Below are positions 24,200 to 63,848 of a stretch of DNA of 64,000 bases, piece by piece (the first letter of the stretch is position 1; each line of letters starts with the position of its first letter). Source of the stretch: Clostridiales bacterium (GTDB lineage Bacteria > Bacillota > Clostridia > Peptostreptococcales > Anaerovoracaceae); the NCBI GenBank assembly GCA_015058275.1, contig SVCQ01000001.1:109270-173269 (forward strand). The letters are read 5' to 3'. The notes below the pieces were generated by a model. It saw nothing but the letters and a program-made list of their open reading frames with translations. It was not told the origin of the DNA and did not search any database. The position numbers and the translations under genes are program-made.

Positions 24200-25225
24200 T
24201 CACGGGCAGGCGGATATTGCGACAAGTTCCAGCGCTGTATCCTTATCTATGTCGCCTCTTTTGATGTCCCTGTCTGTATTGTAAAGATCCGTAAGGATCC
24301 TTTTGATGCGCTTCCTGTGATAACGACCCGCTGCGCTGTAGGCTCTTTTGAAGCGGAATTCGTTGACTCCTGTCCTCCTGGCCATCGCAGAGAGGCTGTA
24401 GCCTCTGTCAGAGAGCTCCAGCGAGTCGTACATGATCTCAAACTGCTTTGTTAATAGAGCCAGCACGGCCATAGCGCCGTCGTCATCACGAATGATGGCC
24501 TCAGCTATTGCAAGAGCCTTGCCGCGGTCGCCTGCCATAAGAGCGTCTACCAGATTGAACACAAAGCGGTCGCTGTCTCCTATGAATATCTCCTCAATAA
24601 GAGAAGCAGATATATCCTCGCCTTCGCAGGCTTTTACCGTCTTGGATATGTCTTTGTCGAGCTGAGACAGATCATAGGCGCTCCCTTTGTTGTAATAGCC
24701 TGTCACGTCGATCATGTGATCGAGCTCGCGCCTTGATATCAGCTTGCCGGCCGAATGGACACGCTTGGTGATGAATGCCTTGAGATCGGCTCTCTCAAGC
24801 CTTGCGAACTCGTAGGCGCCGCAGGCTTTGATCATCTTGCGGCCGTAGGCACTGATATCATCAGAGTATCTGCTCTCGATTCTGAATATGACTATTGATG
24901 AGTCCTGCCTCTGTGAAGCAAACTCAAGGAGCTCATCGGCTCCGGGATCGACTGTCTTCCTGTAAAGCGGCAGGTAGTTCCTGACCACGACTACACGCTT
25001 TGGCGAGAACATCGAATACGCTCTGGCCTCTGCCATTATGTCGTATGCGCCCACCTGATCGCCTTCAAGCACCCTGACATCAAGGTCACGGCTCTCCTCG
25101 TCGACATTGTCCTCTATGAGCCTGGCTACTGCCCAGTCCATAAGGTAATCCTCTGCTCCGTAAAACATCAGGACATCCTTTAATATGCCCTTTTTTCTGT
25201 CATTTACAAAGTCCTTATAGGCCAT
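24200..25225 (-). CDS. holA: DNA polymerase III subunit delta
   Basis: LMFYGAEDYLMDWAVARL..KRVVVVRNYLPL; ends in LTDLYNTDRDIKRGDIDKDTALELV. Confidence 0.9.
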   Translation of the reverse strand: MAYKDFVNDRKKGILKDVLMFYGAEDYLMDWAVARLIEDNVDEESRDLDVRVLEGDQVGAYDIMAEARAYSMFSPKRVVVVRNYLPLYRKTVDPGADELLEFASQRQDSSIVIFRIESRYSDDISAYGRKMIKACGAYEFARLERADLKAFITKRVHSAGKLISRRELDHMIDVTGYYNKGSAYDLSQLDKDISKTVKACEGEDISASLIEEIFIGDSDRFVFNLVDALMAGDRGKALAIAEAIIRDDDGAMAVLALLTKQFEIMYDSLELSDRGYSLSAMARRTGVNEFRFKRAYSAAGRYHRKRIKRILTDLYNTDRDIKRGDIDKDTALELVAISACP

Positions 25226-27557
25226 CAGCTCTCCCCGGTCTGAAGGTATCGACCTTCAGTCTGTCTTTACGTATATCTATACCCACGGCACCGCTAAGGT
25301 CTGTCCTGTAGATGAGTATGCCTCTGGCCTCGAGACGCTCTATCGTCTGCGCGTGAGGATGTCCGTAAAAGTTGCCTGTACCGACCTGTATCACAGCGAT
25401 CTCAGGGGCTGCCGCATCCAGAAAAGCCTCGGATGAACTCGATTTACTGCCGTGGTGCGCGACCTTTAAAATGTCGCATTTAAGTACGTCCGTACCATCG
25501 TAGTATTTTAACATATCAGCTTCATCACTCTCAAGAAGATCGCCTGTTATCATGAGCCTGACACCCTTGTAATTTATGACGTACACATTGTTGTGTTCGT
25601 TTGGATCATCGGCGCTTACAGGTGATGAAGCTTCTCTCACCGGCCATATAGAATCTATGTAAACATCTTCTGTCAGTCTGATGCGGCAAAACGGCTCTAT
25701 GTAGTATGCCTTCTCTATCACCTCGCCCCCGCCACGGTAATCCGAAGGGATACCTATCCTGCCTATAGGGAAGTCCTCTGCCAGCTCAGTGATGCCTTTA
25801 TAATGGTCCATATGAAGGTGTGTGACCAAAGCCATGTCCAGAGCATCGGTTCCGCCGTGTAGGAGGTAAGGCGTCAGTATGCGCTCTCCCACATTGAAAT
25901 CCTGTTTGCCTCCGCCGTCTATCAGCAGGTGATGACCGCCCGCTCTTATGTGAGTGCAGTCGCCCTGACCTACGGATACGAAGACTACTTCATCGTCAGC
26001 AAAGCTGTCATACAGGCAGGCTCCCAGCATCATCACTGGCATCATCAGTAGAGCAGCGCTTCTGGAGATATCCCTGCCTTCCTTCCTTAATATTTTTATC
26101 CTGGTCCATTCTGTTGACAGACCGAATACCGTAATATAAATAGCGAGCGTGAGTGCCGCTCCAAGTCCTGCCACCCTGTACGAAAAGGACCCGTCCATCA
26201 TCAGCAGATTATTGACCTTCATCACCGCGTATGCCAGGAGCTCAGCGATCCATATGCCGGGTCCGGGGAACTGCCCTGTTACAACAGCTATCATCAGCAT
26301 CAGTATGCATACAGGCACCAGCAGCGATGAGATCAGTATCACAGGTATATTTATGAATACAGCAAGCGGGTTTATCCTGTAGAACGTATAGGCAGTCAGC
26401 GGTATGGTTCCGAGTTGCACTGAGATAAGAACGCCCATGGCCTCACCTGTAAATGATGATACCGGTCTTGTCAGAAACGCTATCCCGCTCATCGCAAGAA
26501 ACGAAAGCTCGAAGCCCGTATCTAAAAGCTGATACGGCTGCCATATCAATATGATAAGAGCCGCAAGGCTTACCGATGTGAGCAGATCAAAAGGCCTTTT
26601 GAAATGTATGGCTAGTATGCTTATGCTCATGACTATGCAGGCTCTTATGGTAGCCGGGCTCCACAGTGTCATCTCGCCGTACATGATCATCACTGCTATT
26701 ATCCCGAGAGCTGCTGTTTTTGTCCTCCTGCGGCCCGACAGCATACGAAGGAGTGCATACAGGAATCCCATATGAAGTCCGCTTACAGCAAGGATATGGC
26801 CCGTAGAATTGATATTGAATTCTTCTTTGAGCTCACTGCTTATATCCCTCTTGTCGCCAAACACAACTCCTCTGATAAAGCCTGCGGTCTCATCATCAAA
26901 GCTGTCTATAAAAGCCTCTCTCGTCCTGAAGAGATACCTCCGGAATCTCTCTGCTGGGCTGTTTCCTTCCTGGACGACATCTATCCCGCCGGCTTTGAAC
27001 CAGACTGCAACTCCCCTTGCTCTCAAGTACCTCTTGTAGTCAAAGCATCCGGGATTATCGGCGGATAGTACCTGTCTGTACTCACCCCCGGCCTCGATAA
27101 GCGCTCCGGTAAGCTCGTAAGCCTCGTCATATACTATATCTCCCGTCATATCCGTTGCGGGATGAGTGTCATAGTCATATAAGGCCAGCTGCATCAGACG
27201 CGGACCGCCGTATCTGCGTCCGCATCTTACGATAAGGCTTATCCTCTCGTCGTTCTCCGAGGCCGAGACCACTTTACATCTGATCCTGGCTTCGACCCCC
27301 TCATACTTTGAGGCTTCGTACTCATAAAGCGTATATCTTACGGCAAATGAGAGGAAGCCGCATATCATTACGGCTATCATTATCAGCTTGGCTCTGCGCA
27401 TTCGGTTAATATCCCCGCCTGCAAACAGAACAGCTATGGACAGCGCAATCATAAAGCCGATCGCTTCTGCTGTCCTGAGGCTCTCCAACATAAAAAAGCC
27501 GGCGGCGATACCGGCTGTGTACATTATTGTGAATGATGTCAGCTTCCTTCTGAGCAT
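25215..27557 (-). CDS. comEC: DNA internalization-related competence protein ComEC/Rec2
   Basis: Competence domain SGLHMGFLYALLRML, many TM segments, C-terminal MBL fold VSVGQGDCTHIRAGGHHLLIDGG..VTHLHMDHYKG; preferred start MLRRKL at 27557 behind AGGAGA (ORF track 27578). Confidence 0.94.
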   Translation of the reverse strand: MLRRKLTSFTIMYTAGIAAGFFMLESLRTAEAIGFMIALSIAVLFAGGDINRMRRAKLIMIAVMICGFLSFAVRYTLYEYEASKYEGVEARIRCKVVSASENDERISLIVRCGRRYGGPRLMQLALYDYDTHPATDMTGDIVYDEAYELTGALIEAGGEYRQVLSADNPGCFDYKRYLRARGVAVWFKAGGIDVVQEGNSPAERFRRYLFRTREAFIDSFDDETAGFIRGVVFGDKRDISSELKEEFNINSTGHILAVSGLHMGFLYALLRMLSGRRRTKTAALGIIAVMIMYGEMTLWSPATIRACIVMSISILAIHFKRPFDLLTSVSLAALIILIWQPYQLLDTGFELSFLAMSGIAFLTRPVSSFTGEAMGVLISVQLGTIPLTAYTFYRINPLAVFINIPVILISSLLVPVCILMLMIAVVTGQFPGPGIWIAELLAYAVMKVNNLLMMDGSFSYRVAGLGAALTLAIYITVFGLSTEWTRIKILRKEGRDISRSAALLMMPVMMLGACLYDSFADDEVVFVSVGQGDCTHIRAGGHHLLIDGGGKQDFNVGERILTPYLLHGGTDALDMALVTHLHMDHYKGITELAEDFPIGRIGIPSDYRGGGEVIEKAYYIEPFCRIRLTEDVYIDSIWPVREASSPVSADDPNEHNNVYVINYKGVRLMITGDLLESDEADMLKYYDGTDVLKCDILKVAHHGSKSSSSEAFLDAAAPEIAVIQVGTGNFYGHPHAQTIERLEARGILIYRTDLSGAVGIDIRKDRLKVDTFRPGRADGL

Positions 27558-27602
27558 GGCAGGTATCTCCTGCCACAATTTTACTTATCCGTGGCCTTCG
27601 AT

Positions 27603-27655
27603 ACTGTACAAGTATGGCCATTAAAATTTTGTCGGATCCCGGGCATTTTTTGCAG
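27603..27655 (-). promoter_or_regulatory. Conserved upstream element, copy 1 (46 nt before the comEC start)
   Basis: ACTGTACAAGTATGGCCATTAAAATTTTGTCGGATCCCGGGCATTTTTTGCAG (+ strand) aligns without gaps to 63465-63517, 42/53 identical. Confidence 0.6.
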
Positions 27656-27693
27656 GAGGAACATATCAGGCGCCGTGATCACGGGGAACGGCG

Positions 27694-37211: not shown

Positions 37212-38222
37212 CTAGAGTAAGAATATATTGTGCTTTGCGCACTCTTCGTACATATCCTCAGGCCAGACGGATACCTGTACCTCGCCTATGTGGGCTTTTT
37301 TGAGGAAGAACATGCACAGACGGCTCTGTCCGATACCTCCGCCTATAGTGAGCGGCAGTCTGTTGTTGATGATGTCCTGATGGAATTTGAGTTCCTTTCT
37401 GTCGTTCTTGCCGTCGATATCGAGCTGTCTCACCATTGACTCAGCATCCACACGGATGCCCATCGAGGAGATCTCGAATGCGTCCTCAAGGACCGGGTTC
37501 CACAGTATGATATCTCCGTTGAGCTCCCAGTCATCGTAGTCCGGGGCTCTTCCGTCGTGAGGCTTGCCCGACCTGAGGGCTCCGCCTATCCTCTTGATGA
37601 ATATTGCGCCGTATTCCTCAGCAGCATAGCGCTCTCTCTCCTTAGGAGTGCTGTCCGGATACTGATCCTCGAGATCCTGAGAGTCGATGAATTTGATGTT
37701 CTTTGGCATTTCGATCGAAAGATCAGGATAAAGATCCCATACATACTCCTCGAGATCGAGCAGGCATCTGTAAATGATCCTTACAGTGTGAATGAGGAAT
37801 TCTTCGTTCCTCTGCTCGGCTGTGATGACCTTCTCCCAGTCCCACTGGTCCACATATATGGAGTGAAGGTTGTCGAGCTCCTCATCACGCCTGATCGCGT
37901 TCATGTCTGTGTACAGACCTCTGCCCGGCCTTACCATGTATCTGCCGAGAGCCATGCGCTTCCACTTGGCCAGAGACTGTACGACCTCCACCTGTCTCTC
38001 ATCCAGATCCTTGATGGTGAAGTCTACCCGTCTCTCATAACCGTTAAGATTATCGTTGAGTCCCGACTCCGGGAATACGAACAGAGGCGCACTGACTCTG
38101 CCGAGATTGAGATTGTAGGCCAGTTCCTTCTGGAAATGATCCTTGATCCTCTTGATGGCTCTCTGTGTCTCTGTCTGATCGAGAACCGGCTTGTAGTCTT
38201 TTGGGATAATCAACTTACTCAT
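37212..38222 (-). CDS. asnA: Aspartate--ammonia ligase
   Basis: MSKLIIPKDYKPVLDQTETQRAIKRIKDHFQKEL, RVDFTIKDLDER, GGGIGQSRLCMFFLKKAHIGEVQVSVWP; start corrected from 38426. Confidence 0.96.
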   Translation of the reverse strand: MSKLIIPKDYKPVLDQTETQRAIKRIKDHFQKELAYNLNLGRVSAPLFVFPESGLNDNLNGYERRVDFTIKDLDERQVEVVQSLAKWKRMALGRYMVRPGRGLYTDMNAIRRDEELDNLHSIYVDQWDWEKVITAEQRNEEFLIHTVRIIYRCLLDLEEYVWDLYPDLSIEMPKNIKFIDSQDLEDQYPDSTPKERERYAAEEYGAIFIKRIGGALRSGKPHDGRAPDYDDWELNGDIILWNPVLEDAFEISSMGIRVDAESMVRQLDIDGKNDRKELKFHQDIINNRLPLTIGGGIGQSRLCMFFLKKAHIGEVQVSVWPEDMYEECAKHNIFLL

Positions 38223-38259
38223 AACGTTCCTTCCTTTGTCCATCTTACCAATAACCTTT

Positions 38260-38925
38260 TTATTTGAGATCCTGCATGGCTGCTCTTGCGAATTCGCAGC
38301 CGCAGAAATTCTGCCTGTATAATCCGTACTCCTTAGACATCTCGACGCTTCGTCCGAAGCCGTTCTTCTTTTTGAAGTCGATATCAAGGAATCTGACACC
38401 GGCCTCAGCCTCAAGATCCATGCCAAGTGCCCTGATCTTGTCGTAGTTTTTGTGCGGGCTCACAGACATCGTTGTCGTGAAGTAATCAAAGTCCATCTCA
38501 GCCGCCATGCGTGCTGTCTCGGCAAGTCTCATCGCGAAGCATATGTCGCAGCGCCTGCCTCCCTCCGGCTCATCTGCAAGAGGAAGAGCCCTGTCGAGAT
38601 ATACCTCGGGCTCGTAGGCTCCCTCGAGATAGCCCACAGTGTAGAGATCTTTGTGTCTCTCGTTGAAGGCATTGATGAACTGAAGCAGCGTATCGCGCCT
38701 TAAGTAGTACTCTTCTCTGTCTGTAATGTTTGGATTATAATAATAAACGGTCAGAGCATAGTCATCTGCGAGCCTCTCGACACACGAGGTCGAGCAAGGG
38801 CCGCAGCATGCATGCAGGAGGAGACGCGGTCTGGAATTCATCAGTCCGAGCTGAGAAATATCCTCAGCCTCGATCATCATTTCTTCGCCCATCACAAACG
38901 GAGCATAAGCTGACGTCTTGTCCAT
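38260..38925 (-). CDS. queH: Epoxyqueuosine reductase QueH
   Basis: LLLHACCGPCSTSCVERL, YYNPNITDREEYYLRRD, GGRRCDICFAMRLAETA. Confidence 0.92.
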   Translation of the reverse strand: MDKTSAYAPFVMGEEMMIEAEDISQLGLMNSRPRLLLHACCGPCSTSCVERLADDYALTVYYYNPNITDREEYYLRRDTLLQFINAFNERHKDLYTVGYLEGAYEPEVYLDRALPLADEPEGGRRCDICFAMRLAETARMAAEMDFDYFTTTMSVSPHKNYDKIRALGMDLEAEAGVRFLDIDFKKKNGFGRSVEMSKEYGLYRQNFCGCEFARAAMQDLK

Positions 38926-38952
38926 GCGATCCTCCTTTCGAAAAAAATCTTT

Positions 38953-39906
38953 TTGATTATAACACATACGGAGGGCCTTTGGCATATGCAGGGCGGCGAA
39001 AGATACAATTCCATAAGCGACCATCTCAAAAAAGAGTTCGGACGCAAGACAGTCAAGCTCAGCATTGACGCCGGCTTCACCTGCCCAAACCGTGACGGAA
39101 CACTATCTTACGGGGGATGCGCATTCTGCTCCGAAGGAGGATCGGGCGAACTGGCCGCACACACCGGAGAGACCGCCGACATGCATGAGTCGATCAGCAT
39201 GCAGATAGACAGGCTTTCCGAAAAGTGGCCTGACGCGGTCTATCTCGCCTACTTCCAGGCGTTCACAAATACTTACGCACCTGTTGAAGTATTGAGATCA
39301 AGATATTATGCGGCTCTTGACGATCCACGTATAAGCGGCATTGTCATAGCCACAAGGCCTGACTGCATTCCGGATGATGTCCTCGATCTGCTGAGCGAGA
39401 TAAATCGCGATCATTATATGTGGGTCGAACTCGGCCTGCAGACCATACACAGGGCCACATCGGAAGCCATGAATATCGGCTATGATGTGAGCGCTTATGA
39501 CCGGGCTTTTGAGAGACTATCATCACGCGGCATACGCGTGGTGACCCATCTTATACTGGGCCTTCCGGGCGAGACAAAGGAGATGATGCTCGGATCCCTG
39601 AGACATGTATGCGCGCATCCTCCCTTTGGGATCAAGCTGCACCTCATGAACATAGTCAGGAATTCCGCTCTGTATAGCATGATGCCGGATTATGTGCCCT
39701 TTGAGACTATGGATGAGTATATAAGTCTTGTAACAGACTGCCTTGAGATCATACCGCCTGAAGTCACCATCCACAGGCTGACAGGAGATGTTCCCCGCAG
39801 ATATCTCGTCTCCCCTGAGTGGAGCTACCAGAAGCGCACGATATTAAACGGCATCAACCGCAGGCTCAAAGATCTGGACATTCGTCAGGGAGACAAATAC
39901 ATGTAA
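38953..39906 (+). CDS. TIGR01212-type radical SAM protein (YhcC-like)
   Basis: DAGFTCPNRDGTLSYGGCAFCSEGGSGE, WVELGLQTIHRATSEAMNIG, THLILGLPGE; start could be 38986. Confidence 0.92.
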   Translation: MIITHTEGLWHMQGGERYNSISDHLKKEFGRKTVKLSIDAGFTCPNRDGTLSYGGCAFCSEGGSGELAAHTGETADMHESISMQIDRLSEKWPDAVYLAYFQAFTNTYAPVEVLRSRYYAALDDPRISGIVIATRPDCIPDDVLDLLSEINRDHYMWVELGLQTIHRATSEAMNIGYDVSAYDRAFERLSSRGIRVVTHLILGLPGETKEMMLGSLRHVCAHPPFGIKLHLMNIVRNSALYSMMPDYVPFETMDEYISLVTDCLEIIPPEVTIHRLTGDVPRRYLVSPEWSYQKRTILNGINRRLKDLDIRQGDKYM

Positions 39907-48481: not shown

Positions 48482-49363
48482 CTATCTGGACAGATAGATT
48501 CTGCCCGCATACGATTCAACAAGTCCCTTTATCTCCATTACAGTGATCAGGGAGTTCACAAGGGACGCACTGAGTCCCGTATCCCATATTATCTCATCAC
48601 AGGTCGCTCCGTTATTGCGGACTACCGACTCGTATATCGCAAGCTCGTCTCCTTCAAGATCGGGAGTTCCTGTATTCATCCTGCCGGAGGCGGCGCCTAT
48701 ATCTCTGAGCAGGTCATCGATTATCACAAGCGGTACTGCGCCGTCTCTTATGAGGAGGTTGCAGCCTATGCTCGACCCGCTGTTGATATTGCCCGGCACG
48801 GCGTATACTGTGCGTCCCTGCTCGGATGCAAACTTAGCCGTTATAAGCGAGCCGCTCTCCATCCCCGCCTCCACGACCACAAGGGCCTCTGATAATCCGC
48901 TGATGATCCTGTTCCTCTGGGGGAATGTCCCTTTGTTGGCATCCTGATACGGAGGATATTCACTCACGACAAGCCCGCCCGCCTTAAGACCTCTGTTCAT
49001 AAGTCCGCGGTTCCTCTCAGGCCCCATCCTTTCTATGCCGCTCCCGAGCACTCCGATGATCTTCCCCTCACCCTCAAGCGCACCCTCGTGAGAGAAGGCA
49101 TCGATGCCAAGAGCCAGCCCTGAGATCACAGGCACGCCCGCCTCGGCAAGCCTCCTGCCCGTCATGAGCGCAACGTTTTTGCCGTACAGGGTATATCTCC
49201 TTGATCCCACTACCCCGACAGACGGTTCAAGCAGGAGAGAGATGTCCCCCGTACAGTAAAGCTGCTTCGGAGGATTATGTATATTCCTCAGCTTGTCCGG
49301 GTATTCGGCAGATGCTATGTCTATCTTTTCTGTCCTGTACATGGTCTTCCTCTCAGATGTCAT
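48482..49363 (-). CDS. dprA: DNA-processing protein DprA
   Basis: VGVVGSRRYTLYGKNVA, VISGLALGIDAFSHEGAL, FPQRNRIISGLSEALVVVEAG, AVPGNINSGSSIGCNLLI; start could be 49342 or 49363. Confidence 0.94.
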   Translation of the reverse strand: MTSERKTMYRTEKIDIASAEYPDKLRNIHNPPKQLYCTGDISLLLEPSVGVVGSRRYTLYGKNVALMTGRRLAEAGVPVISGLALGIDAFSHEGALEGEGKIIGVLGSGIERMGPERNRGLMNRGLKAGGLVVSEYPPYQDANKGTFPQRNRIISGLSEALVVVEAGMESGSLITAKFASEQGRTVYAVPGNINSGSSIGCNLLIRDGAVPLVIIDDLLRDIGAASGRMNTGTPDLEGDELAIYESVVRNNGATCDEIIWDTGLSASLVNSLITVMEIKGLVESYAGRIYLSR

Positions 49364-50858
49364 ATTCAAATCTGTAGCCGAGAGCCTCGGCAAGATGTTC
49401 TGTATTAATGGATGCTCTCGCATCAAGATCCGCTATGGTGCGTGCCACTTTGAGTGTCCTGGCGTAGGCTCTGGGTGACATGTTGAACTTATCATAGGCT
49501 GAATTCATGAATCCGGTCTCTTTGCTGCCGAGTCTGCAGTGTATCTCCGTATCGCGGGCTGTGAGCTCCGAATTATAGCCGGACCTTCCCTGTGATGCCG
49601 CGAACGCCCCTGCCGCTTCGACCTGAGTTCTCATCGTCAAAGTATCAAGTCCGCTTCTGGCTCCGGTCAGCTCCCCGTAAGTGACCTTCTCCATGGAGAT
49701 GCACATGTCGATACGGTCCATGATAGGTCCGCTCAGGCGTCTTTTGTACCTCTCTATATCCGCCTGGGAGCAGCTGCACTCCCTGTCTCTGTCTCCCAGG
49801 AATCCGCAGGGACACGGATTGGCCGCCATCATAAGCTGAAAGTTACACGGGAACCTGTAAGTCTCGCCCTTTCTTGTATGTGAGATCGCCTTGTCCTCGA
49901 GAGGCTGTCTGAGGCCCTCTATAGTCCTCCTGTCAAATTCGCAGACTTCGTCAAGGAAGAGCACTCCGTTGTGAGCCATGGTTATCTCTCCTGGGACAGG
50001 ATGCAGACCACCGCCTATGAGCCCCGCCCGGCCGATGGAATGATGAGGCGCTCTGAAAGGTCTTACACGGCAGAGTTCCGTCTCCTCTCCGCTGTGTCCG
50101 TCCACAGACCTTATGATGGCAGTCTCGAGCATCTCCCTTTCGCTCATCCCCGGCATTATCCCCGGCATGCGTCGTGCGAGCATGGTCTTGCCGCAGCCCG
50201 GGCTTCCCTTCAGGAGAATCCCGTGTCTTCCGGCAGCAGCCACGACAAGTGCCCTCTTGGCATTCTCCTGCCCGGCTATGTCCGCAAAGTCTGCAGTTTC
50301 CGGTGCTTTCTTTGTTCCTTCTATACCGGGGTCAAGCATAGCTTCCTTTGGCCTTCGCTTCAGTATGTCCACGCATTCTGCAAGACTCGATGCCGTATGG
50401 ATATTGCCTCCTGCTATTACCGCTTCGCTCCGGTTGGCTTCAGGGACCACTATCCCTTCAAGACCCGTGTCCACCATGTGGAGCATCATCGGAAGAGCTC
50501 CGTCCACGCCGAGGACTCTCCCGTCCAGAGAGAGCTCTCCTATCATGCCCCACCCCCTGCACATATGTCCGCTGAAATACCCGCTGCAGCAAAGTATCCC
50601 TACAGCCATCGGCAAATCCAGGCAGCTTCCGTTCTTGCGCAGGCTTGCAGGTGTCAGATTGACCGTTATCCTGCCGCGCGGGAAGTCAAAGCCTGAATTG
50701 ATGACTGCGCTTTTGATCCTCTCTCTTGCTTCCATTACCATGGTCGACGGCAGACCGACTATATTGATGCCCGGCAGGCCTCTTGCGATATCCGTCTCAA
50801 CATATACGCTCATGCCTTCGATGCCGAAGCATACGGATGAATTGATCCTGCTGTACAT
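49353..50858 (-). CDS. comM: YifB family Mg-chelatase-like AAA ATPase (ComM)
   Basis: LLKGSPGCGKTMLARRMPGIMP, FRAPHHSIGRAGLIGGG, GVLFLDEVCEFDRRTIEGLRQPLED, NPCPCGFLGD. Confidence 0.95.
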   Translation of the reverse strand: MYSRINSSVCFGIEGMSVYVETDIARGLPGINIVGLPSTMVMEARERIKSAVINSGFDFPRGRITVNLTPASLRKNGSCLDLPMAVGILCCSGYFSGHMCRGWGMIGELSLDGRVLGVDGALPMMLHMVDTGLEGIVVPEANRSEAVIAGGNIHTASSLAECVDILKRRPKEAMLDPGIEGTKKAPETADFADIAGQENAKRALVVAAAGRHGILLKGSPGCGKTMLARRMPGIMPGMSEREMLETAIIRSVDGHSGEETELCRVRPFRAPHHSIGRAGLIGGGLHPVPGEITMAHNGVLFLDEVCEFDRRTIEGLRQPLEDKAISHTRKGETYRFPCNFQLMMAANPCPCGFLGDRDRECSCSQADIERYKRRLSGPIMDRIDMCISMEKVTYGELTGARSGLDTLTMRTQVEAAGAFAASQGRSGYNSELTARDTEIHCRLGSKETGFMNSAYDKFNMSPRAYARTLKVARTIADLDARASINTEHLAEALGYRFEYDI

Positions 50859-56325: not shown

Positions 56326-56856
56326 TCAGGAGAAGTCTGACATCCTGTTTTCCATCCTCGAAATGCTCTTATCAAGGAATAGCTTTATCCTGTTGATGTC
56401 TCCCGGCTCGGCGGCCTCTCTGATGCGCCCTGCCATCTCACGCTCTTCCTTTATGTTCTTGTTCATTATCCTGTCCGCAAAGAGAACTATCTTGAACCTG
56501 AAATCAAGCTTTTTGATATCCGGATAATACATGAGCCTGATGCTTTCCGTATCGACTCTGCTGCCTCTTGAATAAACAAGCTCGGGTTCTATCAGATAGT
56601 CCTGTGCTTCAATAAGGTGATCAGATGTGTTCTCGCTCAGGAGTATGAGGTTCCTTATGAGAAGCAGCTTGTCATACAGCCTCAGGCCCTGTATATCCAG
56701 TCTGTCCAGACTGTCCTTCTTGTAGCGGAACGAATAATTACCGCTCTCCTTTACGATCGACATCCTCATGAAATTCGGGCAGTAATTCTGAGTGAGTATC
56801 TCCTCCACATATGCCGGCATCCTGTATCCGGCCATCTCCTGTCTTATCCTTTCCAT
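56326..56856 (-). CDS. Hypothetical protein at the end of the Tad locus (possibly DUF6382-like)
   Basis: 176 aa, closely spaced with the upstream pseudopilin gene; family assignment uncertain. Confidence 0.55.
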   Translation of the reverse strand: MERIRQEMAGYRMPAYVEEILTQNYCPNFMRMSIVKESGNYSFRYKKDSLDRLDIQGLRLYDKLLLIRNLILLSENTSDHLIEAQDYLIEPELVYSRGSRVDTESIRLMYYPDIKKLDFRFKIVLFADRIMNKNIKEEREMAGRIREAAEPGDINRIKLFLDKSISRMENRMSDFS

Positions 56857-56868
56857 GTCTGCTCCTTT

Positions 56869-57630
56869 CTATCCCCCGCACTTTGAGCAGGCCGTGTAGC
56901 CTCTCTCTATGGCAGTGGCCTTGTCGGTCTCTATGTAATTACGCTGAAGCGAAGAGCATCCCGGCAGGTGATAGTCCTCCCCTGTTGAAGGGAAATAGTA
57001 TATGAGAGTTCCGTGCGTTGCGTGTCCGCTTCTGCAAAGCGGGCAGGATTTATACTTCTTTTTGATCGATGCATTGAGAGTCCCCGATCTTGATGCCGCC
57101 TTCAGAAAGCCGCAGCCCTCCGAATGATACTTCTCTCCTCTCTTGGGAAATATGAATACCGGTATGGAGTCATTGTCCATGAAGTCATCTGCAGACATGC
57201 TGCCGGTGTCACGCTCCCTTCCCACATACGCCCTTGTGACAAGCGAGAGCTCATATCCGGCCTTTGCGTTTATCCCTATGGGATTTGGTGTCTCCAGCGT
57301 CATGTCATAGCTTACGGCAATAAGCTCATCCACTCCCCAGCGCTCCGTCCTTATCCCGGAGTCCGTGAGCCTCATCGAGGCTACTTTTGAATGTTTACCC
57401 TGTATCTCCCTTTTGAGCCTGTACGGCACGCTTATCGAAGTGTCTGCTATCGCGCACTCTGCAGCCCCTCTTCTCAGCTCATTGGCAGCAATAAAATTGC
57501 AGTCCTCGATGCACGCATACATCAGTATCACCGAGCTCATGACCATCACCGCGATGATGAACACCGGCAGCGAAATAGCTGATTCAAGCATGTAGCTTCC
57601 TCTCTTATTTGTACGCATCTTCAAATACAT
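56869..57630 (-). CDS. TadE-like pseudopilin with two C-terminal metal-binding (YHxxxC...CxxC) modules
   Basis: N-terminus KRGSYMLESAISLPVFIIAVMVMSSVILMYA; C-terminus KYHSEGCGFLKAASRSGTLNASIKKKYKSCPLC and DYHLPGCSSLQRNYIETDKATAIERGYTACSKC. Confidence 0.85.
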   Translation of the reverse strand: MYLKMRTNKRGSYMLESAISLPVFIIAVMVMSSVILMYACIEDCNFIAANELRRGAAECAIADTSISVPYRLKREIQGKHSKVASMRLTDSGIRTERWGVDELIAVSYDMTLETPNPIGINAKAGYELSLVTRAYVGRERDTGSMSADDFMDNDSIPVFIFPKRGEKYHSEGCGFLKAASRSGTLNASIKKKYKSCPLCRSGHATHGTLIYYFPSTGEDYHLPGCSSLQRNYIETDKATAIERGYTACSKCGG

Positions 57631-58924
57631 GACTCCTGCCGTTTACATCCAATGTGAATCTCGTCCCCGTGTAGTATTCCATGAGATTGAAGTCCCGGTA
57701 GTAGCGGTACTTCATGTTTATCTGTACAAGATCCATGACCCTGAGAAGCCTGGTGTTGCCGTTCATCGCAAGTATCATGATCATGAGATATTCATCGTAA
57801 TTGAGGCCTTCTTTTATCTGGGCAGTATTCCTTATACTACGGGATATGCCGTCTATCGCGCTTCTGTTCTCCCTGAGGTTCTCCTTTGATTCATCATCGA
57901 GCTTCTTCCTGACATTATCTGAATCAAGGACCGCTCCAAGTCCTGTCTTCCATTGTTCAGGCGTCTTGAGGACAGGAACCCTTCCGTCCGTATACAGATC
58001 CTGCAAATCGACCTCTGTCTCAAGCGCTGCCCAAGCCTCGGCTATAAGGACCTGCGTGAGGAGTCCAAGCGGGCCCGGTGTGATAAGCTCGGCAGCAGAT
58101 ATGACGGCTTCGACCTTTACGGGATCCTTGTACAGAGACACGAGATTAAGCGCGTTCCTGGCAAGGAACAGCCTCCTCCTGACCGACCTGTAATTGACCT
58201 CATCATCCGGGCTCCCCTTAATGATGTATTCCCACTCATTGACAAAGAAGTGATCCCTGTCGTCCGACGCAGTCACATGATTGTCAAAGCAGCGCTGTAT
58301 GAGGAGGAATTCAGCTCCCGCGCCCGTTATCCTGGCTCTCAGAGTATTCTCATCACCAAGAGACTTTGCATTCTCAGTGAGCGTATCTGCGCTTATACTG
58401 CCTCCGGCTCCTCCTGACGGAAGCGTATCGAGCACTACTCTGTCGTTTATGATGCGTCCCTCTTCATCGTAGCCCTCGCCGCTGTCAAGATCTCTGTAGC
58501 TGCGGCCTCTGCCGTTAATGAGTTCAGAGGCCGCGCTTGAGGTAAAGCCGAGCCTGAGGGCCTTCCTGAAATTATCCGGATCTCCCAGCTCGTAGCCGGT
58601 GAGATCCGCATTCGCTCCCGTGATAGCTGCATCGAGCTTGCCCCGGGCCGAGTACCTGAGATAATTATTGAGCTTGCTGCTTACATCAGAATCGTTTCCG
58701 AAGTATGCCATTATCGAGAAATCCTCCAGGAGATGGACGTCATACTCTGACAGTACGGCTTTGGTCCATACTCTCCCGAAGGCCTCGCACTCGCTGCTCA
58801 CCACGAGTCTTCTGGATACATTCACTGCAGCTGCAATACAAATCGCAAATGCCACGAACATCATCGCGGTCATCACCATTGATGATCCCTTCTTATTTAC
58901 TTTGATCCTAATCAAGTATCTCAC
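57605..58924 (-). CDS. DUF5702-like TadG-type membrane-anchored protein
   Basis: NKKGSSMVMTAMMFVAFAICIAAAVNVSRRLVVSSECEAFGRVWTKAVLSEYDVHLLEDFSIMAYFG. Confidence 0.72.
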   Translation of the reverse strand: MRYLIRIKVNKKGSSMVMTAMMFVAFAICIAAAVNVSRRLVVSSECEAFGRVWTKAVLSEYDVHLLEDFSIMAYFGNDSDVSSKLNNYLRYSARGKLDAAITGANADLTGYELGDPDNFRKALRLGFTSSAASELINGRGRSYRDLDSGEGYDEEGRIINDRVVLDTLPSGGAGGSISADTLTENAKSLGDENTLRARITGAGAEFLLIQRCFDNHVTASDDRDHFFVNEWEYIIKGSPDDEVNYRSVRRRLFLARNALNLVSLYKDPVKVEAVISAAELITPGPLGLLTQVLIAEAWAALETEVDLQDLYTDGRVPVLKTPEQWKTGLGAVLDSDNVRKKLDDESKENLRENRSAIDGISRSIRNTAQIKEGLNYDEYLMIMILAMNGNTRLLRVMDLVQINMKYRYYRDFNLMEYYTGTRFTLDVNGRSHVFEDAYK

Positions 58925-59264
58925 CGCTTCTCACCAGAAAATCTTCGTTTATCATGTATGCCTTTATCTCTATCCGCTTATGTACATCCATCGTCAGAAG
59001 TCCGCCTCTCAAAAGGCTCACTTTATCCTCATCTTTGTAGGTGCGTATCAGTACTCCCCGGTATGCATCCTGCTCCTGCATTACCTCCCTGTGTCTGGCG
59101 ATGCCTGATGTCAGTATCTCTATGTAGAAGACAAAGAGCCTCACAAGGAGCATTGCGGCCAGTATGACAAGAGGCAGCGATATTGCAGCCTCGACCATCT
59201 GCGAGCCTCGCTTATTGCCCGGCAGGATGCGGAGTCTTCTTATGTGCCTAGAAATTGGCAGCAT
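58908..59264 (-). CDS. TadE-like pseudopilin
   Basis: GNKRGSQMVEAAISLPLVILAAMLLVRLFVFYIEILTSGIARHREVMQ. Confidence 0.8.
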   Translation of the reverse strand: MLPISRHIRRLRILPGNKRGSQMVEAAISLPLVILAAMLLVRLFVFYIEILTSGIARHREVMQEQDAYRGVLIRTYKDEDKVSLLRGGLLTMDVHKRIEIKAYMINEDFLVRSGEILD

Positions 59265-59421
59265 CGAGATTGCCGAATATGCGGTTCACGAAATCAACGA
59301 TGGATGATTTGAATATGATCCCGACCGCTACTGCGATGGCCACTAGTATTGCTACCTGGACCATCTCCATTCCCTTCTTGTTCATGAGGGAATTCATCAA
59401 GAATAGTTTGATCTTCTTCAT
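59248..59421 (-). CDS. Flp-type (type IVb) pilin, 57 aa
   Basis: Below the ORF-track cutoff; reads MKKIKLFLMNSLMNKKGMEMVQVAILVAIAVAVGIIFKSSIVDFVNRIFGNLDAANF*. Confidence 0.85.
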   Translation of the reverse strand: MKKIKLFLMNSLMNKKGMEMVQVAILVAIAVAVGIIFKSSIVDFVNRIFGNLDAANF

Positions 59422-59472
59422 AATCTGTCTCCTTTCCCTTTGAATGATATGTATACTGCACGGCGCCTCCTG

Positions 59473-60489
59473 CTACATGCCCAGAAGCGCCGGTGCCATC
59501 GTTATTACTATCAGCAGTATCAGCAGAAGCCCCAGCGGATATGCCATCTTTGTGTCTATCATCTTGCCGCTCTCCCTGGCCACGATCTTCCTCTCGTCCC
59601 AGAGATATCTGCTCTCGCGCGCGAGGCTTTCTATGACATCGCTTCCCCTTCGCTCGTTCTCCGTGAGTATGCTTGCTATCCTGATCATCTCCTTGACGTC
59701 GTTGCGAAGTGCGTAATCCTTTATCACCTCCGCCGTGCTTATCCTGTGCCCGTCGGTAGCATCGCGCATGCTGGCAAGATCCCTTTCGAAGCTGCTGAGA
59801 TCATCCTCTTCGTATGAAACATAACTACCCGTTATGGTATCGAAGGCATCGCTTAGTATGAGCCCTGCGTTCATCATGAGGAAGAGCTGATTGCAGAACC
59901 TCGGCAGGCCTTTCAGTATGGACCTTCTCCTTTCCTCTGCCGATTTATCTCCGCGGCCTGATGAAGCTATCATCATCAGTATCAGCGCAGCGTATATGAC
60001 CGGTATGAGTATGAGAAGAGAATTGTCGCTCCTATCAGCTCCGAGCCACCTGATGGCTGTCCCGTCAGGAAGTGTGTGCGGCAGAGAGATTTTCCTTTCT
60101 TTTGAATACTCGATCTCGCTTATGATGCTGTCTATGCCGGCCTCTATCGAAGCCTGCCTGTCATCCTTGCTGCTTATCCTGATCCCCGTCCTGCCGTCAG
60201 ACTGAGGCTGCAGAGTCAGAGTGACCTCGCGTTTTGTGATCTCATCTCCGTCTCTAATCTCAAGATCAAGATCATATCGCTCGGTCTTCTGAAGGCTCCG
60301 CCTGCTGATGCCCACTATGGCTCCCGAGCCGTCTGCTATCAGCTTGCCGCTCTCCTCCGGCCCCCTTACCGCAAGAGCAAGTATGAGAAGCGCCGTGACC
60401 AGAGTGACCGCATATATACCCGACATCAGCCTGGTATCATTCCTCAGTGCTGCCGTCTTATTCCTTAATGTGACCATCAGATCATCCAT
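59473..60489 (-). CDS. TadC-like type II/IV secretion F-family membrane protein
   Basis: GLPRFCNQLFLMMNAGLILSDAFDTI, ARESRYLWDERKIVARESGKMIDTKMAYPLGLLLILLIVITMAPALL; start corrected from 60552. Confidence 0.85.
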   Translation of the reverse strand: MDDLMVTLRNKTAALRNDTRLMSGIYAVTLVTALLILALAVRGPEESGKLIADGSGAIVGISRRSLQKTERYDLDLEIRDGDEITKREVTLTLQPQSDGRTGIRISSKDDRQASIEAGIDSIISEIEYSKERKISLPHTLPDGTAIRWLGADRSDNSLLILIPVIYAALILMMIASSGRGDKSAEERRRSILKGLPRFCNQLFLMMNAGLILSDAFDTITGSYVSYEEDDLSSFERDLASMRDATDGHRISTAEVIKDYALRNDVKEMIRIASILTENERRGSDVIESLARESRYLWDERKIVARESGKMIDTKMAYPLGLLLILLIVITMAPALLGM

Positions 60490-60491
60490 GT

Positions 60492-61235
60492 CTATATCTC
60501 CACACTCACTATTTTTTGTATCATCGCGTATATCCCTATGATCGATGCGCATACAGAGGTCATGATCACCCTGCCTGCCACTGTCTCGTACAGCGGCGCT
60601 ATGTAGTCGGGCGCAGTCAGATTGAGGAAGAGTATTATAAGTACCGGCATCACGAATATGACCATGCCTTCGCTCTCCTTACGCCTGATGAGTTCCTCTA
60701 TCTCCCTGTCTATGCTCATCTTCTCCATGATCACGGAGGCGGCCTTGTTGAGAGCTGTTATCAGGCTCGCACCCGTCATCTTGCATATTGAATAGACCGT
60801 GACGAAGTCATGCACATCCTCAAGGCCGCTCAGCTCCGCCATGTCCCTCAGCACCGTTACATCGTTCTCTCCGCCCGTCTCCATGCGCTCATATGCCTTT
60901 TCGAGATCGCCCGCGAGTATCGAGCGCCGGCCGTGGATATTTCGCATGGACGGTATGGATTCTGCAATCGCATCCTTCATGGATCTACCCGCTCCTATGG
61001 CAGTGGAAGCCATGAAGAGGAAATCCTTGAACTCAGCCAGATACCTCTTGCGTCTGCGGCTTATAATGCTGTCTGTAACAAAACCCTTTATCTTCTTTGA
61101 GAACGGAAGTATCACAACAGCAAAGAATATATTCCTGTACAGAAGGTACGATACAGCCAGTCCAGCAAGCACAAGTCCCGCGTGATACAGTATCTCTTCC
61201 TTCCTGCTGAGCTTATATACTCTCAGATCAGTCAT
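60492..61235 (-). CDS. TadB-like type II/IV secretion F-family membrane protein
   Basis: RKRYLAEFKDFLFMASTAIGAGRSMKDAIAES, VTVYSICKMTGASLITALNKAASVIMEKMSIDREIEELIRRKESEG. Confidence 0.87.
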   Translation of the reverse strand: MTDLRVYKLSRKEEILYHAGLVLAGLAVSYLLYRNIFFAVVILPFSKKIKGFVTDSIISRRRKRYLAEFKDFLFMASTAIGAGRSMKDAIAESIPSMRNIHGRRSILAGDLEKAYERMETGGENDVTVLRDMAELSGLEDVHDFVTVYSICKMTGASLITALNKAASVIMEKMSIDREIEELIRRKESEGMVIFVMPVLIILFLNLTAPDYIAPLYETVAGRVIMTSVCASIIGIYAMIQKIVSVEI

Positions 61236-62503
61236 GACGCTCTCCCTTCTCCGGATCCCGTGCTCCCCTGCATCATCTCTCCGTAGCCGAATCTTGTAAG
61301 TCTCTCCCTGTCAAGGAGTCCGTTGCCGGTCGGCATGAGGCTTCCCTCCCTGTCAACCTTGTACAGATAGTTGAGAATGTAGTCAGCACCGTCGAAACCC
61401 GCGATCTCGGCTACCTCTTCAACATGTCTTCGTCCCTTTGCATCTCTTTTAAGATGTACGAATATATCTATCGCATTTGCGATCTGGTTCCTGACAGATC
61501 CGACGGACACCTGCGAGTCCGACAGGTACATGGTCTCAAGGCGGTTTAACATGCCGCGTATCGAGTTGCCGTGCCCCGTGCTCATGCTGCCGTCATGGCC
61601 TGTATTCATCGCCTGTATCATGTCTATGACCTCGCGGCCTCTTACCTCTCCGACGATTATCCGGTCAGGCCTCATCCTGAGGCTCGTCCTTATGAGCTGG
61701 GTCATATTGACCTCTCCCTTGCCGATAGAATTGGCCGCCCTGCATTCCATCTGCACCTTGTTGTCTATATGGCTTATGACAAGCTCGGCCGAGTCCTCTA
61801 TCGTGATGACCCTCTCGCTCCTGCCTATGAAGGCGGTAAGAGCGTTAAGAAAGGTCGTCTTGCCGGATGAAGTCCCTCCGCTTATGAAGATGTTGTATCC
61901 GCTTCTCACAAGCACGGCGAGATCGACCGCGCAGTCGCTTGAGAGGCTTGCGCATCCCACGAGCTCCGCCATGTCTATCTCTGTCTCGCGGAACTTACGT
62001 ATGGTAAGGATCGGGCCGTTGAGAGCCACGGTCCTGAGTACCCCGTTTACCCTGTATCCGGAAGGGAGCCTTGCGTCCACTATCGGATTCGCCTCGTTTA
62101 TCTCCCTGTGGACATCGGATGCGAACATCCTGATGATCTCCTCAAGCTCCGCATATGATGTAAAGGCATCATCCACCCTGACAAGCCTTCTCTCCCTCTC
62201 CACGTATATCCTCTCAGGACCGTTCACCATGATCTCGTTGATATGAGGATCAGAGAGAAGCTCTTCGAGTATCCCGTAGCGGTTTATGAGCCTCACGTGC
62301 ATGCTGCCGAGGATGATCTCATTCTCCCTTGATGATGTCCTGTATGAGAGCTCCGATCCGAAGAACTCATCCTCGCATCTTGCAAGTATCTCATCGGCGG
62401 AGGGAGCCTCGCTCCTGTCTGTCATCCACTTCCTGATGCTCCTGATGAGATCTTCTATCTCAGTTCCGTATTTGCTTACTGTCGCTGCTCTTGTTATTGT
62501 CAT
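61232..62503 (-). CDS. TadA/CpaF family secretion ATPase
   Basis: EIMVNGPERIYVERERRLVRV, NIFISGGTSSGKTTFLNALTAFI, RMRPDRIIVGEVRGREVIDMIQAMNTGHDGSMSTGHGNS. Confidence 0.95.
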   Translation of the reverse strand: MTITRAATVSKYGTEIEDLIRSIRKWMTDRSEAPSADEILARCEDEFFGSELSYRTSSRENEIILGSMHVRLINRYGILEELLSDPHINEIMVNGPERIYVERERRLVRVDDAFTSYAELEEIIRMFASDVHREINEANPIVDARLPSGYRVNGVLRTVALNGPILTIRKFRETEIDMAELVGCASLSSDCAVDLAVLVRSGYNIFISGGTSSGKTTFLNALTAFIGRSERVITIEDSAELVISHIDNKVQMECRAANSIGKGEVNMTQLIRTSLRMRPDRIIVGEVRGREVIDMIQAMNTGHDGSMSTGHGNSIRGMLNRLETMYLSDSQVSVGSVRNQIANAIDIFVHLKRDAKGRRHVEEVAEIAGFDGADYILNYLYKVDREGSLMPTGNGLLDRERLTRFGYGEMMQGSTGSGEGRAS

Positions 62504-63419
62504 AGCCGTCCATTCCGTATATCTGCCTTATGCAGTCATCTATGGCAAGTGCCTCATCGCTGTCTCCGGTATGCCTGATGCTGATAACATCCCTGCCGGA
62601 CTCCCTTCCTATCATTTCGGAGAACCCAGGGATCCTCCTGCCGCTTTCAAAGCAGACTATGCTGCCTGCTTCCTTGATGACAGACAGGTTCTCATGTCTC
62701 AGGCATGTACCTGCATCCATTACCACAGCATCAAAACCGCCTGAAATCCCCGCTATCAAATCTCTCAGCTCATCCTCCTCAAGATATGCTGCAGGGTTCA
62801 GTCCCGGAGGAAGCATCAGAGAAGACACCCCGTAGCTGTCTGTATATGTGAAGCTGTCCCATGCGCTGCCGCGTCCCGTCCTGACAGCATACATGAGTCT
62901 TGCGAATCTGTTGATGCGCCCGCTCTCAGGCCTGCCGTAATCGTTTATAAAGCCGAGACTCAGCAGGAGGACTCTTCCGCCGCGCCTGTATATGATCTGT
63001 CTGGCAAGAGCCCTGCACTTGTCCGATACAAACGAATCCGAATCGCTCAGCACAGCTATTGTCTTTGAAGAGCATGTCCGCCTGACTCCCCCGCCGTGCC
63101 ACTCGCTGTATGCATTGACGAATTCCGACAGCAGGCTCTCAACGCCAGAGTATTTGAACACTCTCCTGTATGTATCGTTGTCAGGTGATGTATCCGCCTC
63201 ATCAGCTGAGCGTGACAGAAACACAGTCCGTACGGCTATACGCGAGAGTATCTGTTCGTCGAACTCCTCAGGTCCTATGTCTGTCAGTATCAGGCAGTCT
63301 GATGTGTCGCCTCCTGTCTCGCCTATAACATTTACGAATATATCATTATCGTAAGATGCAAGTTTATCGACCAGTGCCTTCCTGTATTCTGTATCCCTTA
63401 TCAGAATTCCAAGTCTCAT
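62460..63419 (-). CDS. TadZ/CpaE-like protein
   Basis: MRLGILIRDTEYRKALVDKLASYDNDIFVNVIGE receiver-like N-terminus, degenerate MinD-like C-terminal half; first gene of the Tad locus; start corrected from 63440 to the ATG behind AGGAGGG. Confidence 0.72.
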   Translation of the reverse strand: MRLGILIRDTEYRKALVDKLASYDNDIFVNVIGETGGDTSDCLILTDIGPEEFDEQILSRIAVRTVFLSRSADEADTSPDNDTYRRVFKYSGVESLLSEFVNAYSEWHGGGVRRTCSSKTIAVLSDSDSFVSDKCRALARQIIYRRGGRVLLLSLGFINDYGRPESGRINRFARLMYAVRTGRGSAWDSFTYTDSYGVSSLMLPPGLNPAAYLEEDELRDLIAGISGGFDAVVMDAGTCLRHENLSVIKEAGSIVCFESGRRIPGFSEMIGRESGRDVISIRHTGDSDEALAIDDCIRQIYGMDGYDNNKSSDSKQIRN

Positions 63420-63464
63420 TTCGCCCTCCTGTACGCTCAACTATACTGATCCGCGCAGCAAAAA

Positions 63465-63517
63465 ACTGTACACATATTGCCATCAGAATATTGTCGGATT
63501 GCGGTGATTTATTGCAG
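63465..63517 (-). promoter_or_regulatory. Conserved upstream element, copy 2 (46 nt before the tadZ-like start)
   Basis: ACTGTACACATATTGCCATCAGAATATTGTCGGATTGCGGTGATTTATTGCAG (+ strand), 42/53 identical to 27603-27655. Confidence 0.6.
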
Positions 63518-63530
63518 ATAAACAGGCAAT

Positions 63531-63660: not shown

Positions 63661-63691
63661 ATAAAAAAAATGGACAGACGTCGTCTGTCCA
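63661..63691 (-). terminator. Terminator downstream of the tRNA-Leu fragment
   Basis: Minus strand GGACAGACGACGTCTGTCCATTTTTTTT. Confidence 0.75.
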
Positions 63692-63697
63692 ATATGA

Positions 63698-63736
63698 TGG
63701 TGCGGATGAAAGGACTCCGACGCGCGTAAGCGCTAG
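63698..63736 (-). pseudogene. 3' fragment of a tRNA-Leu gene with a deletion in the T arm
   Basis: Minus strand CTAGCGCTTACGCGCGTCGGAGTCCTTTCATCCGCACCA resembles tRNA-Leu variable arm/T arm/acceptor plus CCA, lacking the usual GGTTC. Confidence 0.6.
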
Positions 63737-63779: not shown

Positions 63780-63848
63780 TAATCGAATAGGGTGGATTTT
63801 CTCCACCCTTTCACACCACCGTACGTGCCGTTCGGCATACGGCGGTTC
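63780..63848 (-). mobile_element. Group II intron 3' end (domains V and VI)
   Basis: Minus strand GAACCGCCGTATGCCGAACGGCACGTACGGTGGTGTG (domain V type) then AAGGGTGGAGAAAATCCACCCTATTCGAT (domain VI type). Confidence 0.75.

Follow-up and report, generated by a model that had tools for sequence, protein, structure and literature searches.

The 64,000-nucleotide stretch of Clostridiales DNA analysed here (the window) forms the end of contig C12 in a draft genome (1.82 Mb in 36 contigs, 82.8% complete) and carries, on its reverse strand, both a nine-gene tad locus for a Tad/Flp pilus (56326-63440) and comEC, with which that locus shares a promoter module. The genes of the tad locus overlap or are separated by short gaps, run in the order tadZ-like, tadA, tadB, tadC, flp, tadE1, DUF5702, tadE2 and DUF6382, and stay together in the relatives in which the whole locus is readable. 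Profile searches recovered the TadA, TadB, TadC, Flp, TadE-like and DUF5702 proteins that a first-pass annotation had listed from the sequence, those for TadB and TadE below threshold, and left its TadZ name without a model match. The pilus motor ATPase TadA (61232-62503, 423 amino acids, Walker A GGTSSGKT) scores 168 bits against PF00437 (T2SSE) and is 65-81% identical across 20 relatives of the genus; its best NCBIfam model is TIGR03819 (E 2.6e-83), yet it falls under the cut-off of that model. Two separate platform proteins are present, as in Tad/Flp systems: TadC (59473-60552) narrowly passes PF00482 (T2SSF; 25.6 bits, cut-off 25.2), and TadB (60492-61235) was called from a score under that cut-off (16.0 bits) together with its position and conservation. 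The gene flp (59248-59421) encodes a major pilin of 57 amino acids (PF16982, Flp1_like, 35.4 bits, cut-off 33.5), a short pilin with a processing site of the G/xxxxE type which, given the N-terminus KKG/MEMVQ, does not follow the classical G/xxxxEY in every detail.

The remaining genes of the locus are called with varying firmness. The TadE/F-like pseudopilins have prepilin-like N-termini and sub-threshold matches to PF07811; in TadE1 (58908-59264) these are KRG/SQMVE and 13.6 bits. The DUF5702 protein (57605-58924; PF18960, 143 bits; N-terminus KKG/SSMVM) occupies a TadG-like position. TadE2 (56869-57630, 253 amino acids), which the first-pass annotation had left as an unknown, has a TadE-like N-terminus and two C-terminal putative zinc modules of the form H-x3-C ... 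C-x2-C. The locus reaches beyond the end given to it there, as a DUF6382 gene (56326-56856; PF19909, 31.3 bits) adjoins tad in relatives and is conserved in the genus. The first gene of the operon (62460-63419, 326 amino acids) is syntenic in 20 relatives. Searches of Pfam, NCBIfam and PHROG gave no match for its product, which also lacks a normal Walker A motif; the name TadZ-like therefore rests on position and size. For this gene a TTG start at 63440 was rejected because it falls within the conserved promoter; the ATG at 63419, with the ribosome-binding site AGGAGG, is more likely.

The comEC gene (25215-27557, reverse strand) encodes a protein of 780 amino acids with a complete domain set: DUF4131 (PF13567, 34 bits), Competence (PF03772, 142 bits) and Lactamase_B (PF00753, 59 bits). 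Here too a TTG start was rejected, being inside the conserved promoter, and the ATG at 27557 is more likely. The module at tad (63440-63520, reverse strand) comprises a 21-bp unit (63479-63499) with a weaker copy just upstream, the core TGTACAGT (63465-63472) and the -10 box TATAGT (63440-63445). Its counterpart at comEC (27578-27658, reverse strand) is built in the same way, with the 21-bp unit at 27617-27637, again with a weaker copy just upstream, the core TGTACAGT at 27603-27610 and the -10 box TAAAAT at 27578-27583. In the upstream regions of comEC and tad from relatives, the conserved core is cTGTACAG, often as the palindrome ACTGTACAGT, and the -10 box lies exactly 19 nucleotides after TGTACAGT, being TATAGT-like at tad and TAGAAT-like at comEC. 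The upstream unit is close to aaATcCgaCATTtTTtgCAcg and is repeated at 21 bp, a periodicity that is significant (lag-21 match rate 0.339 against a maximum of 0.302; lags 15-29, 200 shuffles).

The motif by which the first-pass annotation had linked tad with comEC corresponds to the nearest 21-bp unit plus the core. ATCCGACAAnATTnTnATGGC occurs exactly twice in the window, against a chance expectation of 0.05, and the 25-mer, allowing up to three mismatches, has only two sites in the entire 1.82-Mb genome, those at comEC and tad, whose upstream regions match without gaps over about 60 bp. When a 67-bp weight matrix was built from relatives alone, the tad site scored 54.9 bits, comEC 33.1 bits and the next best position in the window 4.0 bits. 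With a matrix built from the comEC promoters of other genomes alone, the tad site ranked first in the window (37.9 bits), and a matrix from tad promoters alone placed comEC second, behind tad.

The module is also nearly exclusive to these two genes among relatives, of which chosen stretches were read. Named relatives are assemblies from the rumen and from goat, sheep and horse gut, deposited under Mogibacterium sp., Clostridiales or Candidatus Crickella. Across the genus set of 47 genomes, the pattern TGTACAGTTTTN16TANANT with at most one mismatch had 52 sites, compared with 7 for the reversed pattern used as control, and 22 of the 23 exact sites fell at comEC or tad promoters; the remaining one precedes a large secreted protein in genome G319. 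Several one-mismatch sites (G318/G319, G248, G294 and G317/G323) were rejected as lying inside unrelated sequence. Scanning about 1.05 Mb drawn from many loci, which is not a random sample, the 67-bp matrix found hardly any sites above 12 bits other than those at tad and comEC. Four other promoters exceeded 30 bits, each in a single genome; judging by their sequences, they precede the large secreted protein of G319 (L122), an apparent Rpn-type nuclease (L129:2241), an apparent BrnT-type toxin (L130, reverse strand, 618) and what looks like an XRE/DUF2442 gene (L139:1232). By the same matrix, the module is absent from the type IVa pilus and PilT mini-operon loci described below, from dprA in the window and from the comEA loci of 12 relatives, on which ground ComEA was rejected as a member of the regulon. 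As a family-wide marker the exact 25-mer was discarded: its 25 matches in 23 of 298 genomes include none beside comEC or tad outside this genome and were treated as chance, and the conserved part of the 25-mer region is the core and the -10 box.

The two promoters vary together. In 20 genomes, tad and comEC promoters of the same genome agree at 36.8 of 67 positions, compared with 32.7 +/- 0.8 for shuffled pairs, and the observed agreement was matched by no permutation out of 10,000; because related genomes are not independent, the 20 pairs represent a few independent changes, not twenty. Variant forms occur at both promoters of the same genome, TGTGCTGA in G171 and in G306, TGTACAAC in G261, and the tad and comEC variants likewise match in G298 (TGTACTGA) and G319 (TGTACAGC). 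Two sister genera have a form of their own common to both promoters, GTGTACTGAAGGGGAA in G032 and TGTGCTGAAGGG in G060. Throughout the genus and these two sister genera, the sequence between the core and the -10 box has diverged, leaving only the core, the -10 box and the 21-bp units conserved. Among the 39 other genera of the family that were compared, 37 showed no shared tad/comEC segment convincingly above control, and the core was found at both genes only in G032 and G060; the regulon is therefore limited to this clade rather than extending to the whole family. Within that clade, tad and comEC very probably form a small dedicated regulon, and the link proposed in the first-pass annotation proved genus-wide, co-varying and stronger than the sequence of the window could tell. 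As side observations, tadA and comEC lie on one contig, about 9-67 kb apart, in several other genera (G060, G077, G048, G005 and G076), and the comEC frame is interrupted by one TAG in G240 and one TGA in G198, where sequencing errors or decay are possible.

Other genes for DNA uptake are present. The genome has complete ComEC, ComEA and DprA proteins, as in transformation of the Micrococcus luteus type. The dprA gene (48482-49426, reverse strand; PF02481, 238 bits), whose product takes part in transformation in other organisms, has no upstream motif, so the co-expression of dprA with tad and comEC that the first-pass annotation had predicted finds no sequence support. No prepilin peptidase was seen in the window, as that annotation had stated, and the tadV-type enzyme that it proposed to look for elsewhere lies on contig C25 at 24647; it has PF01478 only, without the N-terminal methylase domain. 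It is one of two A24 peptidases over the cut-off in this genome, both located elsewhere than the window. Nearly the whole genus has a single A24 peptidase per genome, and two are found only in the four genomes with PilB (G000, G309, G267 and G282, of 47).

The second filament of this genome is a type IVa pilus, a usual filament for DNA uptake, which is complete on contig C30 (PilB, PilT, PilC, PilD, PilM, PilN-like and PilO-like proteins and two pilins); Tad is therefore not the sole candidate filament here. We saw no separate pilus operon under the shared motif, which the first-pass annotation had named as evidence that would refute a Tad-based uptake system: the C30 pilus exists but lacks the motif. 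Many relatives have instead a mini-operon of a platform protein, four small pseudopilin-like proteins and a PilT-family ATPase, located near comEC where its position could be read (for example L087:4915-8788, L090 and L091). Genomes with the full type IVa pilus are without it, and the cassette is absent from the equivalent place in the window (37212-39906). Its motor scores 393 bits against TIGR01420 and 123.5 bits against the ComGA equivalog, whose cut-off of 300 bits is also missed by TadA (67 bits) and by the C30 PilT (128 bits). In one relative (G082, L091:2738-4016), a sigma-factor-like gene and a possible anti-sigma partner adjoin the mini-pilus operon; it is a conceivable candidate for a regulator.

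Counting as another pilus motor any T2SSE protein over the cut-off, and considering only genomes at least 90% complete, we found that TadA is the only such motor in six relatives (G248, G255, G198, G277, G240 and G272), all of which have ComEC, ComEA and one A24 peptidase. An absence of any other type IV filament, which does not hold for this genome, is found in some relatives only. At the same completeness, about eight genomes have tad together with the mini-operon and two have the mini-operon but no tad.

The C-terminal part of TadE2 consists of two modules, V-Y-x-F-P-x-x-G-x-x-Y-H-x3-C ... A-x-x-x-G-Y-T-P-C-x2-C, whose four putative zinc ligands (HCCC) are invariant in both modules in 48 aligned sequences. 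Of 40 tad loci in the family, 39 encode a module of this type, usually in two copies and sometimes in one. The resemblance to the N-terminal zinc domain of the DNA-repair protein Ada (PF02805, Ada_Zn_binding; 1ADN) is weak. Like that domain, the Tad modules have the last Cys pair at the same spacing and end in AxxxGYxPCxxC; unlike it, they have His rather than Cys as first ligand, and they fall below the Pfam cut-off and gave no structural match. Of 22 aligned modules, 14 match PF02805, all below the cut-off (best E 0.0018), and Ada structures are among the top PDB matches without being significant. The full-length structure model of TadE2 has low confidence, the AlphaFold model of its C-terminal part reaches a predicted local distance difference test score (pLDDT) of 78.6, and a fold search with the latter gave no PDB match at E <= 0.001, leaving the zinc part unassigned to any known fold. 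A DNA-binding role for the zinc-module pseudopilin is a plausible inference only, since the structure prediction is moderate and the fold search non-significant. Across Clostridia the YHxxxC...GYTPCxxC module has a wide distribution, occurring on an SNase protein (L278), on lactamase-fold proteins (L276, L279, L284 and L301) and on further TadE-like proteins (L290, L292, L293 and L297); among the modules scanned, only that of L301 exceeds the Ada_Zn_binding cut-off (34.2 bits). A plasmid tblastn search with the zinc-module query returned one weak match, to a hypothetical protein.

Taken together, the shared promoter suggests, without proving it, that the Tad pilus catches DNA for natural transformation, and we consider Tad-driven DNA capture the likeliest function, with a probability somewhat above even. 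One factor, either an activator or a sigma factor that recognises an atypical -35 site, would read the TGTACAG core and the 21-bp-spaced upstream units and would switch on the Tad pilus and the ComEC channel together, giving rise to a competent state. Pilin maturation could be carried out by the TadV-type peptidase on C25, and the pilus, built and retracted by its single motor TadA, would bind DNA outside the cell, possibly by means of its zinc-module pseudopilin, and convey that DNA across the wall to ComEA and ComEC, after which DprA would load the incoming DNA for recombination. The six relatives at least 90% complete that have TadA as their sole T2SSE motor beside ComEC and ComEA strengthen the uptake reading, and the presence of the zinc modules on a secreted nuclease-type protein and on lactamase-fold proteins is likewise counted in its favour. 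The broader proposal, that gut Clostridia of this clade possess a minimal competence regulon in which one regulator controls Tad and ComEC and a zinc-module pseudopilin binds DNA, and hence a Firmicutes uptake pilus with its own regulatory code that is independent of both ComG and type IVa pili, is put forward tentatively and may well not hold in full.

Several observations weigh against Tad-driven uptake. This genome has a complete type IVa pilus and many relatives have the PilT-type mini-operon; dprA and, in the 12 relatives, comEA stand outside the regulon; and 37 of the 39 other genera lack the shared element though nearly all have both genes. In G135 and G290 comEC is kept while tadA is not recognisable, and the comEC of G135 retains the motif, so comEC is regulated in this way even without tad. 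The likeness of the zinc modules to Ada is sub-threshold and their fold comparison gave no significant match. Finally, the organism is known solely from a draft assembly, from the sequence of which expression and uptake are predicted. The interpretation of the first-pass annotation, a Tad-based DNA-uptake machine, was thus borne out in its regulatory link between tad and comEC, but Tad is not the only filament here, and some relatives with comEC have no Tad.

Adhesion is the best-known role of Tad pili, and the locus could encode an adhesion or biofilm pilus that is induced in the same state as ComEC while another filament captures DNA, the type IVa pilus here and the PilT mini-operon in relatives. 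The full C30 pilus with its own PilD and the genomes that combine tad with the mini-operon, or have the mini-operon alone, fit such a division of labour, and the ligand of the zinc modules need not be DNA. However, the type IVa and mini-operon loci both lack the motif, the mini-operon encodes a motor ATPase of the retraction-type PilT family rather than a ComGA equivalog, and the six near-complete genomes without another T2SSE motor retain comEC and comEA, which makes this explanation rather unlikely, if one to be taken seriously. If Tad and ComEC do cooperate, they might import DNA as a nutrient or for repair, with recombination incidental; dprA and comEA lack the motif, which places the recombination step outside the regulon, but ComEC and DprA are both intact, and sequence cannot separate nutrient or repair uptake from transformation. 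We regard this possibility as improbable.

Two further explanations concern the promoter similarity itself. The shared element might be a generic promoter of the genus that implies no common function of tad and comEC, for which the promoter-like spacing of core and -10 box and the four single-genome promoters above 30 bits could be cited; the near-exclusivity of the matrix hits and the two sites of the 25-mer in the whole genome already largely contradict it, and it appears highly unlikely. Recent copying of one promoter region to the other gene could likewise account for the ungapped 60-bp match in this genome, but the pair occurs at both genes genus-wide and in two sister genera, with the functional elements conserved and the spacer diverged, so we give this explanation very little credence as well.

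Use of a Tad pilus in DNA uptake is already known, and the literature found, in the parts available, ties Tad pili to it in two lineages only. Tad is required for transformation in M. luteus (PMC4322843), which resembles the system described here in its single-motor Tad pilus, its ComEC, ComEA and DprA, and a TadV-type peptidase encoded away from tad. M. luteus has no other type IV filament, which is matched here by some relatives only, and it is an actinobacterium with two tad loci, unlike this member of the Clostridia with one tad locus plus a type IVa pilus. The available parts of the M. luteus literature do not mention a shared tad-comEC promoter module or a zinc-module pseudopilin, and function in the present case is predicted from sequence. 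Tad is also needed for DNA uptake in Liberibacter crescens (PMC8513845), where a Tad motor mutant loses stable uptake and ComEC is the channel; this bacterium is Gram-negative, with a secretin and CpaB, and the accessible text describes no tad-comEC co-regulation. A single motor for both building and retraction would agree with Caulobacter, whose Tad motor powers extension and retraction both (PMC11300603). The ComG pilus of Firmicutes likewise serves, with ComEA and ComEC, in DNA capture by single-membrane bacteria, but belongs to a different filament class, and all T2SSE proteins tested here fall under the ComGA equivalog cut-off. The C30 pilus belongs to the same superfamily as Tad, and other type IVa pili drive DNA uptake; it differs in having PilB, PilT, PilD and PilM/N/O and in lacking the shared module.

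A literature search in which subscription papers were mostly outside coverage returned no report of Tad-comEC co-regulation in Clostridia, and neither the conserved tad-comEC module in Clostridia nor a zinc-module Tad pseudopilin was found in the literature searched. The genus-wide Tad-ComEC regulon would be an independent, sequence-based sign of function and offers a cis-element for finding the regulator. If Tad-driven capture is correct, natural transformation would have to be considered for many gut Clostridia that combine ComEC and Tad without ComG. The zinc-module pseudopilin is a concrete candidate for the DNA-binding component and is amenable to purification.

The surroundings of the two promoters yielded a few minor observations. 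Near the contig end, the window contains the end of a group II intron (63782-63847, reverse strand; Rfam RF00029, 44.1 bits), after which comes an apparent tRNA-Leu 3' end at about 63690-63710. In most of the relatives checked, tad is immediately preceded by tRNA-Glu, tRNA-Leu (UAG) or both, and in G240 (L049) comEC has directly upstream of it a similar stretch resembling a group II intron.

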